This document shows, in pieces, positions 1 through 2,692 of a stretch of DNA of 11,954 bases. The DNA comes from Candidatus Tayloriibacteriota bacterium (GTDB taxonomy: Bacteria > Patescibacteriota > Minisyncoccia > Phycocordibacterales > JAKAEA01). The DNA lies in assembly GCA_029288535.1 (NCBI GenBank), contig JARIGY010000014.1, forward strand, positions 1 through 11,954. The letters are read 5' to 3'. Under the pieces are notes generated by a model. That model had not been told where the DNA came from, did no database searches, and saw only the letters and a list, made by a program, of their open reading frames with translations. Numbering within the stretch: the stretch's first letter is position 1; every line of letters begins with the position of its first letter. Made by a program: the position numbers and the translations under genes.

Positions 1-923
1 AATCTATATATGGCCTGCTTTTCATCTCCTACAATAAAAATATTGGGTGTATCGAAGAATTCCGCAATGATGCCTACTATGAAGTTCTGAGCATCATTGG
101 TATCCTGATGCTCATCGACATGAAGATATAAAAATTTTTCCTGCACCAATCGCAACAGCAATTCATCGCGCTTTAAAGCGACAAGCACTTCAATGATCAG
201 GTCGTCGAAGTCGATCTTCTTGTTGGTTCGTTTGAGTTCTTCATACTCATGGTAGACATCGGCAAAGACAAACGTGCGCTCGCACTTCTCAATCCGCTTC
301 AAGCCTTCCGCCTTGAGTTTGCCTTTTGTCGCGCCGCGCGTTGAAATGTAGGCTTCATCATGCTTGATGCGCTCGATTTCTTCCTTGGCATGAGCGCGGA
401 TGATATCGGGCGTCCAGGCTTCGCGTTTTGCATCGCTTATGGCGCCGATAATTTTAGGCACATAATAATCAGGCTCGCCGAGCGGGCGCAGATCGTTATA
501 TTCAGGCTTTTTCAAAATCGTCCTGACCATATCTTCGACTTCGATATCGGTGATCTGCTCCGAATCTGCGAGATGGGGAAAGTGATCATCGTATTCGGCA
601 AGCACCGACGAAGCGAATCCGTGGAAAGTGTGGATCCGGACTTCATCTGCCCGCGCGCCGATGATCTGCCGCAGCTTCATGCGCATGGCTTTGACTCCCG
701 CTTCGGTAAACGTGATAGCCAGAATTCCCGACGGCGGCGTGTCGGTTGTTTTTAAAATATTCGCAATGCGCAATGTCAAAACAGTCGTCTTTCCGGTGCC
801 CGGGCCGGCAATAACCATGACAGGTCCTTCTATGGTGTCTACCGCACGTTTCTGCTCAGGATTGAGGTTTTTATAGGCCTTTTCGAAGGCTTCTAGGCCT
901 GTTTTGACCGGAGCGGTGTTCAT
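1..923 (-). CDS. UvrD/Rep-type superfamily 1 DNA helicase, N-terminal part (cut by window edge)
   Basis: An ATP-driven 3'-5' DNA helicase of the UvrD/Rep/PcrA/AddA superfamily, acting in DNA repair or recombination. Only 307 residues are in the window; the C-terminal half lies beyond base 1. Visible motifs in order: Q motif LNPEQ (20-24), Walker A AGPGTGKT (39-46), motif Ia TFTEAGVKAM (71-80), motif Ib HTFHGFAS (98-105), motif II VDEHQD (269-274) and motif III VGDEKQAIYR (298-307). Motif II has His where UvrD/PcrA usually have Phe or Tyr. Motif III GDEKQ resembles RecB/AddA more than the GDDDQ of UvrD. The missing C-terminus may therefore carry a PD-(D/E)XK nuclease, which cannot be checked here. 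The ATG at 921-923 is chosen because it directly precedes the Q motif and lies just below a clear promoter. There is no Shine-Dalgarno sequence. The gene runs in the same direction as rpoD but is separated from it by the DUF559 module. Superfamily is certain; subfamily is not. Confidence 0.93.
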   Translation of the reverse strand, partial: MNTAPVKTGLEAFEKAYKNLNPEQKRAVDTIEGPVMVIAGPGTGKTTVLTLRIANILKTTDTPPSGILAITFTEAGVKAMRMKLRQIIGARADEVRIHTFHGFASSVLAEYDDHFPHLADSEQITDIEVEDMVRTILKKPEYNDLRPLGEPDYYVPKIIGAISDAKREAWTPDIIRAHAKEEIERIKHDEAYISTRGATKGKLKAEGLKRIEKCERTFVFADVYHEYEELKRTNKKIDFDDLIIEVLVALKRDELLLRLVQEKFLYLHVDEHQDTNDAQNFIVGIIAEFFDTPNIFIVGDEKQAIYR

Positions 924-1007: not shown

Positions 1008-1358
1008 ATGGAAATAATCCCCTACAACAAAAACCTAAAGTCTCGGTCAAGATCTCTAAGAAATAATAGTACTCTTGCAGAAGTAATCTTGTGGAACAGT
1101 TTGAAAAGAAAGCAGACAGGCCTCCAATTCCTGCGGCAAAAACCGATCAATAATTACATTGTCGACTTTTATTGCAAAAAATTAAAGCTTGCGATTGAAT
1201 TAGATGGTTCTAGCCACGACTCTAAATTAGAAGAAGATATTTTCAGGCAAGGCCAGCTCGAATCTTTCGGTATAACTTTTTTACGATTTTCTAATGACAG
1301 GATACTAAATGATCTAGATGAGGTTATACATGAAATTAGGGCAAAGTCGGGATTATAA
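1008..1358 (+). CDS. DUF559 (Vsr-like) endonuclease-domain protein
   Basis: A 116-aa protein of the DUF559 family (Pfam PF04480), related to very-short-patch-repair endonucleases of the PD-(D/E)XK fold. Family hallmarks: a basic N-terminal helix with T22, E25 and L28-W29; FLRQKPINNYIVDFYC (41-56) with D53; LAIELDG (61-67) with E64 and D66; then LESFGITFLRF (84-94), the usual C-terminal strand. D53 and the E64/D66 pair are the likely metal ligands. Length is normal for the stand-alone family, so the gene looks intact. The ATG at 1008 directly follows an in-frame TAG at 1005-1007, so the frame cannot extend upstream. No Shine-Dalgarno sequence is visible. GC is about 36% (hand count over 1021-1320) against roughly 53-57% in two sampled rpoB stretches, and the gene runs opposite to its neighbours; both suggest an acquired gene. 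Its stop codon is formed by the end of the palindromic element that follows. The family is poorly understood, and a role as a selfish or mobile endonuclease is inference. Confidence 0.9.
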   Translation: MEIIPYNKNLKSRSRSLRNNSTLAEVILWNSLKRKQTGLQFLRQKPINNYIVDFYCKKLKLAIELDGSSHDSKLEEDIFRQGQLESFGITFLRFSNDRILNDLDEVIHEIRAKSGL

Positions 1359-1480
1359 AAACATCCCCCGCCTTTCAGGCGCCCCCTTCAAAGGGGGATT
1401 CCCTTCGTTCGAGTTACCCGAAAGATTATTAGCAGAAATCTCCCCTTGAGGGGAGTGGCCGCAGGCCGAGGGATGTTTTA
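1356..1480. repeat. Nested palindromic element (about 125 bp) with terminal inverted repeats
   Basis: The ends are near-perfect inverted copies: AAAACATCCC (1358-1367) and GGGATGTTTT (1470-1479). The similarity continues inward for about 40 bases per arm as an imperfect match. Each arm also folds on itself into two small hairpins: CGCCT/AGGCG (1369-1381) and CCCCCTT/AAGGGGG (1382-1397) on the left, CTCCCCT/AGGGGAG (1440-1455) and GGCC/GGCC (1457-1467) on the right. A centre of about 40 bases (1398-1439) is less structured. The whole could be drawn as one long stem or as four hairpins, a cruciform-like layout. It lies exactly between the convergent DUF559 and rpoD genes and forms the last stop codon of both. 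It resembles a REP/MITE-type repeat. A link with the adjacent endonuclease gene is inferred from adjacency, and copies elsewhere in the genome cannot be seen here. Confidence 0.8.
1356..1480. terminator. Possible bidirectional terminator formed by the palindromic element
   Basis: The plus-strand DUF559 transcript and the minus-strand rpoD operon transcript meet here. Paired arms would end in GGGATGTTTT on the plus strand and GGGATGTTTTT on the minus strand, which are GC-rich stems running into short T tracts. No other terminator-like hairpin is seen after either gene. The T tracts form part of the stem, so termination efficiency is uncertain. Confidence 0.4.
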
Positions 1481-2692
1481 ATAATTCCTCAATCTATTCA
1501 CCTTCTCGTGCTGACGGATCTTCTCGTGAGCTTTGGCTTCGATCTGGCGGATGCGTTCGCGGGTGACGCCGAATTTCTTGCCCACTTCTTCAAGTGTATG
1601 CTGGACGCCGTCGAGCAAGCCATGTCGGAGCTCAAGGATTTTTCGTTCTTTTTCCGGAAGATCGTTCAGGATCTCACGGACTTGGTCGCCAATAATTCTT
1701 CGGGACGATTCCTGATCGGGTGAAAGAATTTTATCATCGGAAATAAAGTCGCCGAGCACTGACTTTTCTTCACCTTCATCGCCAACAGGGCTTTCAAGTG
1801 AAACGGTAGACTGGTCGATCTTTTCTATTTGATAGACTTTATCAACATCGAGTCCCATCTCGGTTGCGATTTCTTCCGGCAACGGGTCGCGGCCCAAGTC
1901 TTGCGCCAAGCGGCGGACAACCTGTTTGTACTTTGCGATTGTTTCTACCATATGCACCGGAACGCGAATAGTTCGTGACTGGTCGGCAAGAGCACGAGTA
2001 ATAGCCTGGCGGATCCACCAGGTAGCGTACGTTGAAAACTTGTAGCCTTTGGTCCAATCGAATTTATCTACGGCTTTAAACAAACCAAGATTTCCTTCTT
2101 GAATAAGATCGAGAAGAGTAAGGTCTGGGCTGCGGCCGACATATTTCTTGGCGATAGAAACCACGAGGCGCAAGTTGGCGCGGGCAAGCAGGTTTTTTGC
2201 CTCCAAATCCCCTTTCTCGATTCTTCGGGCAAGGTCTTTTTCGTTGCCGGCGTTGAGCAGCGGGTATTGGCCGATCTCTTTCAAGTAGATCTGGATTGAA
2301 TCGTATGAGGAATCGCTTCCGCCGTAATAGCTTTTCTTAGGCACGACATCGTCGATAGGCACATCGAGCAAGCCTCCGCCTTCAAGCACATCGACTCCTG
2401 CCGAATTGAATTTTTCGTACAGCTCTTCGAGGAACATGATATCGTCCTCGATGGTCGGAAACTCTTTCAGGATTTCATCGTAGGTGACGAAACCGCGTTC
2501 CTTGCCTTTTGAGATGAGCTTCTCTGCTTTGACATCCATGTCGACGCGCTTGACTGCTTTTGCCGGAGCCTTTTCCTTGGGCTTGGCAGCGGTGCGGGCT
2601 TGCGCTTTTTTGGGCGCAGCTTTGGATGCCGGCGCTTTTGCCGGTGCTTTCTTTTTTGCGATATGCTTTTTTTCTGGTTGCTTCTTCATCAT
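1478..2692 (-). CDS. rpoD: RNA polymerase primary sigma factor (sigma70/RpoD)
   Basis: Housekeeping sigma factor that directs core RNA polymerase to -10/-35 promoters. At 404 aa it resembles the short SigA of Gram-positives rather than the 613-aa E. coli protein. Domains in order: a Lys/Ala/Pro-rich tail (1-50); region 1.1 (about 54-108); region 1.2 (about 129-160, [15 protein letters not shown]); region 2 with core-binding [11 protein letters not shown] (194-204) and the 2.3-2.4 melting and -10-recognition helix [20 protein letters not shown] (222-241); region 3 (about 249-325); and region 4 with the 4.2 helix-turn-helix (366-393, [20 protein letters not shown]), which binds the -35. It is the last gene of the operon, 9 bases after dnaG, with no Shine-Dalgarno sequence, so translation is probably coupled. 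The start is ATG-ATG; either Met would serve. The stop codon (1478-1480) belongs to the palindromic element. The basic tail is low-complexity and is not part of the conserved sigma core. Confidence 0.97.

Follow-up and report, generated by a model that had tools for sequence, protein, structure and literature searches.

Stand-alone DUF559 nuclease genes and the C-run/G-run palindromes surrounding them probably constitute one selfish repeat system, functionally similar to a REPtron but built around an unrelated enzyme. We observed linkage of the hairpins to the genes, matching of hairpin dialects to the nuclease tree, an association with copy number across genomes, presence and absence at orthologous sites, and repeat units inside open frames. 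The pairing of nuclease and palindrome is a statistical result, from which we infer cleavage and mobilisation.

A nuclease gene beside two inverted palindromic units

The window (the whole 11,954-nucleotide stretch analysed here) belongs to a bacterial genome, probably of the CPR/Patescibacteria type, assembled in 107 contigs totaling 0.79 Mb. Its DUF559 gene (1008..1358, forward strand) was identified by its open reading frame and by a match of the 116-residue product to the PF04480 profile (E=1.3e-32, 112.3 bits), passing the Pfam gathering cut-off of 20.6. Invariant residues in an alignment of 26 DUF559 sequences were R18, E25, W29, F41, Q44, D53, F54, E64, D66, G67, and H70. The nearest solved folds were those of NGO0050, the homing endonuclease I-Bth0305I, and Vsr. 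The window's protein shares the Vsr/PD-(D/E)XK fold and its conserved acidic residues, in agreement with the initial annotation, which had placed DUF559 among the PD-(D/E)XK nucleases. The sole PADLOC match in the window was to a methyl-directed type II REase (8e-5).

To the left of the insertion lies a partial UvrD/PcrA-like helicase gene (1..923, reverse strand), and to the right an rpoD-type sigma factor gene (1478..2692, reverse strand) whose stop codon abuts the palindrome, both names being judged from protein sequence. The DUF559 gene therefore does run opposite to two codirectional neighbors, as originally described. It is also as AT-rich as had been reported (about 36% GC): its GC content is 0.36, and the 350-bp bin at 1051-1400 has the lowest value among 34 bins (0.383, with the remaining bins at 0.429-0.580). 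Some DUF559 reading frames in the wider sample, such as L006, L028, L061, and L067, read into the right-hand repeat and acquire proline/glycine/lysine-rich tails.

In the element that follows the DUF559 stop codon, inverted arms at 1349-1400 and 1437-1488 are 75% complementary. The element's single-strand fold had a z-score of -4.23, and none of 200 shuffled sequences was equally stable. It is best read as two inverted units of ~40 nt, each combining a main C-run/G-run (polypyrimidine/polypurine) hairpin, a small hairpin, and an ACATCCC/GGGATGT end. Unit 1 (1361..1400, reverse strand) consists of the ACATCCC end, a small hairpin at 1369-1381, and the main hairpin at 1382-1397. After a spacer (1401..1436), unit 2 (1437..1476, forward strand) repeats this arrangement in inverted order, with its main hairpin at 1440-1455, its small hairpin at 1457-1467, and the GAGGGATGT end. 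The palindromic element with four hairpins that had first been noticed directly behind the gene is thus real, and its four hairpins resolve into two per unit. No Rfam family matched at the gathering threshold in the six loci scanned, ruling out a known RNA family.

Hairpins accompany DUF559 genes in the window's class

We assembled 74 DUF559 genes from relatives and from the class, with 69 coming from the class search and five more from relatives. Three of the genes have internal stops. Of the 17 PF04480 rows from relatives, ten were left out as weaker or partial (E > 1e-15). A strict hairpin was defined as having perfect arms of at least 7 nt, a loop of 2-8 nt, CCC, and a 5' arm with no more than one purine, and as lying within 150 bp of the gene. 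Such pyrimidine-first hairpins accompanied 57 of the 74 genes (47 upstream, 36 downstream, and 26 on both sides), as compared to 15 of 176 control ORFs away from DUF559 genes (two on both sides), although relatedness among the sampled genes and genomes means that these counts are not fully independent. Controls came only from the longer fetched loci (L051-L090). A further 60 ORFs close to DUF559 genes were set apart from the controls, and 30 of them carry the hairpin. Hairpin density was 8.3 per kb within 50 bp of a DUF559 gene as compared to 0.04-0.14 per kb at distances of 500 to 4000 bp, while the bin beyond 4000 bp held one hairpin on 1.1 kb. Inverted similarity across the gene reached a score of at least 18 for 32 of the 74 genes versus 12 of 1328 mismatched pairs.

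Chance adjacency combined with base composition is barely conceivable as an explanation for this linkage, and nothing outside the single locus spoke in its favor. It is refuted by mono-shuffled flank sets, in which the hairpin appeared in 0 of 1480, and by the fold of the window's element relative to its shuffles. Moreover, hairpins of the purine-first orientation were found in no upstream flank and one downstream flank of the 74 genes. Attraction to small genes in general was likewise rejected using two control families: hairpins were found beside 0 of 15 PIN genes (all rows found) and 2 of 30 GIY-YIG genes (30 among the matches listed).

The strict hairpin was missing from 17 of the 74 DUF559 genes. 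In some of these cases (e.g., L038, L040, and L067) the gene sits within a palindrome whose arms lie on both sides of the ORF, and in others (e.g., L043, L061, and L081) nothing clear surrounds the gene. The polarity of the units relative to the DUF559 gene is variable, in contrast to that of a transposon, whose ends are fixed.

The pairing extends across named bacteria and plasmids

For named genomes, we examined the best 80 of 571 confirmed stretches and called a gene stand-alone if its open frame spanned at most 200 codons. Within these 80, the hairpin accompanied 51 of 60 stand-alone DUF559 genes versus 14 of 248 control ORFs, and 6 of 20 DUF559 domains in longer frames. The stand-alone genes with a hairpin comprised 20 of 21 in CPR records, 8 of 8 in bacterial records without a finer label, and 23 of 31 in all others. 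The last group was made up of Pseudomonadota (8/9), Desulfuromonad/Delta-type bacteria (4/4), Chloroflexi (4/4), Bacteroidota (6/10, leaving 4/10 without a hairpin), Ignavibacteria (1/2), Zixibacteria (0/1), and cyanobacteria (0/1).

A YcjD query matched 43 of 72,556 plasmid records and 3 of 50,697 phage records, and on these counts we rejected DUF559 as phage cargo. Six plasmid-collection examples were chosen from the 43 records. Four of these (from Synechocystis, Deinococcus, Sphingomonas, and Pseudanabaena) had strict hairpins at the gene ends or within 150 bp, and imperfect hairpins could be recognized by eye in the examples from Neisseria gonorrhoeae and Picosynechococcus.

Separately, DUF559 domains occurred in frames of up to ~1600 codons, mostly without palindromes (L229, L230, L236, L237, L243, L261, L263, L269, and others). 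These are perhaps inteins or multidomain enzymes. No intron or intein was seen at the stand-alone genes.

Repeat number follows DUF559 presence

We counted the pattern CCCCTN{3,13}AGGGG in 286 genomes that were also searched for DUF559, using the reversed pattern as a control and calling a genome DUF559-negative if it had no match at E ≤ 1e-15. The median count was 20 in the 44 positive genomes and 4 in the 242 negative genomes (MWU p 4e-18), whereas the control pattern had medians of 3 and 4, respectively (MWU p 0.77). At least 15 matches were present in 31 of 44 positive genomes versus 8 of 242 negative ones. Nine genera contained genomes of both kinds, and the positive mean was higher in all nine (sign test p 0.004). 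For example, one genus (g61) had counts of 36, 23, 27, and 48 in positive genomes versus 3, 5, and 4 in negative genomes. The initial annotation had asked whether copies of the palindrome lie next to DUF559 genes more often than chance; hairpins of this kind do accompany DUF559 genes, in position as well as in number per genome.

There were counter-cases of both kinds. Seven of the 44 positive genomes had fewer than 10 matches, and 14 negative genomes had at least 12 matches and twice their own control count. Three of those 14 had any DUF559 match at E ≤ 0.01 (one above the cut-off). In another observation on the 14, the four matches that we read in one genome (G132) resembled ordinary terminators.

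Copies of the palindrome were also sought in the window's own genome, where the element proved not to be unique. The 161-bp element region has three partial copies elsewhere, and the broad hairpin pattern matched 20 times versus twice for the control pattern. Three units lie in a gene judged from its sequence to be tsaD-like, whose frame stays open across all of them. They belong to three dialects: that of the window, that of the genome's second DUF559 gene (L008), and a third. A large ATPase-like gene contains a fourth unit within its open frame. The gene tsaD is essential in bacteria. When aligned with ten orthologues (11 of 24 fetched loci in total), the extra segments of the tsaD-like protein fell in loops that are variable elsewhere too. 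If the proposed repeat system is correct, it would offer a possible explanation of how essential proteins, such as the product of this gene, acquire short in-frame insertions. The third dialect (L088:6234-6256) matches neither of the two DUF559 genes in the assembly and is perhaps the relic of a lost nuclease or a consequence of an assembly gap.

Hairpins are frequent at gene ends, and the palindrome could accordingly serve either the DUF559 gene or rpoD as a terminator or operator. Its position against the rpoD stop codon fits this explanation, as do the terminator-like matches in the DUF559-negative genome described above. Nevertheless, we consider it very improbable. An ordinary terminator can be rejected because units occur within open frames, and it would not account for hairpins on both sides of 26 of 74 DUF559 genes or for tens of pattern matches per genome. 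Additionally, the related TM motifs of E. coli, which are introduced below, had neither promoter nor terminator activity in earlier work cited by Holder (PMC4666352).

Repeat dialects track the nuclease

When placed on the DUF559 tree, hairpin cores tended to group by nuclease clade rather than by host. A group of dialects with GATA/TATC/GACA loops spans five host families, and the CTCA..TGAG and TTT..AAA groups each span several. Among the 57 of 74 genes with a strict hairpin, a Mantel-type comparison of dialect with nuclease distance gave rho = -0.26 across all pairs and -0.21 between host families, with 0 of 2000 permutations as strong in each case. When permuted within families, 12 of 2000 were as strong. 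The repeat dialect therefore follows the nuclease tree, with an effect that is modest and consistent.

Dialect matching bears on whether DUF559 genes are only passengers, that is, whether the palindromes are made by other enzymes (e.g., an HUH/RAYT transposase) and form hotspots in which the genes happen to land. HUH enzymes do process REP palindromes (PMC8266576), but dialect matching speaks against a passenger role. The lack of enrichment at PIN and GIY-YIG genes and the lower enrichment at DUF559 domains in long frames (6/20 among the best 80 of 571) also argue against landing at hotspots, which we regard as distinctly unlikely.

Occupied and empty sites

The initial annotation suggested comparing orthologous rpoD-helicase junctions for empty sites. 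We considered the best 30 of 45 matches, including the window's own locus, and found rpoD and helicase genes to be neighbors in 13 of the 29 other rpoD loci. None of these 29 had a DUF559 gene or strict hairpin at the locus, whereas the window's locus has both. Hence, these relatives lack the gene beside rpoD, including the 13 that have kept synteny. Considering that copies of the palindrome also exist elsewhere in the genome and associate with DUF559 genes, these results support the original proposal that nuclease and repeat form one mobile unit.

Pedobacter provided a second set of comparisons. One genome (G340) has, at a single site, three copies of the DUF559 gene interspersed with palindrome pairs. 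We searched 119 Pedobacter genomes and found both flanks in 48 among the matches listed. In 21 of these 48, the left match stops short of the cassette, and no more than 100 bp separate the flanks. Six loci (G479, G442, G456, G515, G549, and G460) had neither a DUF559 gene nor a strict hairpin; another (G550) had neither by rule and a different palindrome by eye; and four (G476, G447, G556, and G535) had both gene and strict hairpin. No target duplication could be fixed at the Pedobacter junctions, which at ~80% identity are too diverged. The tandem array itself (L248:3203-5135) precedes a response-regulator-like gene, and its three DUF559 proteins are 96% identical.

In Cedecea (L224), the cassette is part of a 520-bp stretch that corresponds to 48 bp in a relative whose flanks are 96% identical, which is a replacement and not a clean empty site. 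The E. coli TM sites at argE-ppc and zntA-tusA were replaced intergenic alleles with no clean insertions. Neither a target sequence common to the empty sites nor a target-site duplication was identified among the rpoD, Pedobacter, and Cedecea sites.

Partial occupancy of orthologous sites also matters for a different explanation, namely that DUF559 is a host-serving, Vsr-like repair nuclease that deals with hairpin or triplex obstacles and is kept where repeats are common, while the repeats spread by other means. The DUF559 fold is indeed close to that of Vsr, the Caulobacter DUF559 protein VsrA has a functional link with a cytosine methyltransferase (PMC12907096), and ycjD, the DUF559 gene of E. 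coli, is conserved throughout whole phylogroups (PMC12817139). A repair role nonetheless leaves unexplained why the gene is positioned between or beside repeats, why orthologous sites are only partially occupied, and why dialect matches nuclease across host families. We judge this explanation to be unlikely.

A proposed mechanism and its relation to known systems

In the selfish repeat system that we favor, the EDxHD/Vsr-like nuclease would recognize its own hairpin dialect, probably in extruded or single-stranded form and perhaps with a triplex-forming third strand. It would cut at or beside the hairpin, and repair of the break could then copy units to new places. The autonomous form would be a nuclease gene with flanking units, and non-autonomous forms would be single units and inverted pairs. 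The window would represent a DUF559 gene plus an inverted pair. Variable unit polarity and the existence of single units suggest that the nuclease's targets are units, not the fixed ends of a cassette.

The closest analogy is the REPtron (TnpA-REP/RAYT with REP), in which HUH enzymes act on single-stranded REP, and enzyme and repeat co-evolve (PMC8266576). Like a REPtron, the DUF559 pair features a small palindrome-bordered gene, many dispersed copies, inverted pairs, and covariation between enzyme and repeat, making the comparison to REP/RAYT in the initial annotation an apt one. However, RAYT is an HUH/Y1 tyrosine transposase, whereas the DUF559 enzyme has a Vsr/EDxHD-like fold. REP has a conserved preceding motif, while the DUF559-side repeats have C-runs and G-runs, often with a mirror tail. 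Vsr-like nucleases hydrolyze DNA without covalent strand transfer, and the chemistry should therefore differ from that of a REPtron. Because the defining enzyme differs, the system works in a REPtron-like manner yet is not a REPtron.

Other known systems differ as well. I-Bth0305I carries a long DNA-binding extension (PMC3943268), unlike the stand-alone DUF559 proteins of ~116 residues, which are also distinguished from I-Bth0305I and Vsr by their pairing with palindromes. MITEs and insertion sequences with terminal inverted repeats resemble the DUF559 pair in having a gene between inverted repeats alongside gene-less copies, but they depend on a DDE transposase rather than a Vsr-like enzyme, and the DUF559 units are variable in polarity. 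If our explanation is true, a nuclease family unrelated to HUH transposases would join the movers of palindromic repeats, and the pair would deserve a class of its own if mobilisation were proven.

Resemblance to BoxC/PIT/TM repeats and E. coli ycjD

The BoxC/PIT/TM intrastrand-triplex motif consists of a pyrimidine arm, a loop, a purine arm, and a mirror third strand (PMC4666352). DUF559-side units resemble it in their pyrimidine arm, short loop, purine arm, and occurrence as inverted pairs, and some of them have a mirror purine strand, often after a 3-nt linker. The units in the window differ in that the linker is itself a hairpin and the mirror strand is only partial. A mirror of the purine arm, often after 3 nt, followed 52 of 113 DUF559-side hairpins versus 3.4% of shuffled tails and 11 of 67 other hairpins. 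Triplex formation by the E. coli motif has reportedly been studied by others with CD and NMR.

Holder 2015 described 23 TM copies in MG1655 and neither transposase nor integrase activity around TM sites, and its main text has no occurrence of ycjD (PMC4666352). We found that ycjD of E. coli K-12 encodes a DUF559 protein (1.4e-49). Inspection by eye shows a decayed element at the gene's stop codon and an intact one ~170 bp downstream, before fabI. Of 5,426 E. coli genomes, 5,375 contain this ycjD-side element, at 87,528 places in all and with a median of 18. We take it for Holder's TM from its architecture, TTA linker, and copy number.

We next consider copy number among strains, for which we used 60 rows spread over the 5,399 matching records and dropped one 231-kb record. 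The 37 strains with ycjD had 14-30 element places (median 22), and the 22 without had 1-20 (median 4), with 8 of the 22 having 12-20. This difference (p 1e-9) is confounded by phylogroup, and the contrast reflects few independent events because of phylogroup structure (PMC12817139).

The same pairing in very different bacteria, including E. coli, suggests that DUF559 is the hitherto missing partner responsible for spreading the repeats. It is quite possible, though we lean slightly toward doubt, that BoxC/PIT/TM intrastrand-triplex repeats are disseminated by stand-alone DUF559 proteins and that together they form a separate, widespread class of mobile palindromes. As part of this same tentative reading, a hydrolytic Vsr/EDxHD nuclease would read hairpin or triplex DNA in dialect-specific nuclease-repeat pairs. 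The class would include autonomous cassettes, tandem arrays, and in-frame 'peptide-donating' insertions, and would range across CPR, Bacteroidota, Pseudomonadota, Chloroflexota, cyanobacteria, and Deinococcota.

The pairing links a common domain whose function is unknown, DUF559, to a common kind of repeat whose origin is unknown, the triplex-forming repeats. It provides the uncharacterized ycjD gene of E. coli K-12 with a concrete candidate substrate and turns the spread of BoxC/PIT into a testable question. Among the papers found on either partner, none described the pairing, as judged mostly from titles and abstracts. The nuclease and the repeat were each known before; what appears to be new is their pairing, how widely it occurs, and the matching of dialects.

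Hairpins at GIY-YIG genes

Another hairpin lies beside or around the gene at 5 of the 30 GIY-YIG loci (L168, L171, L176, L183, and L188), in some cases on both sides. These hairpins are of the ATCCTGAA..TTCAGGAT type or the CCCGC type, and GIY-YIG genes with hairpins of their own possibly represent another nuclease-palindrome pair. Counting a lax motif gave 6 of 30 GIY-YIG genes versus 20 of 208 control ORFs, which was not significant. GIY-YIG domains are numerous in some reduced genomes, with at least 10 matches in 7 of 56 and a maximum of 17 (G132).
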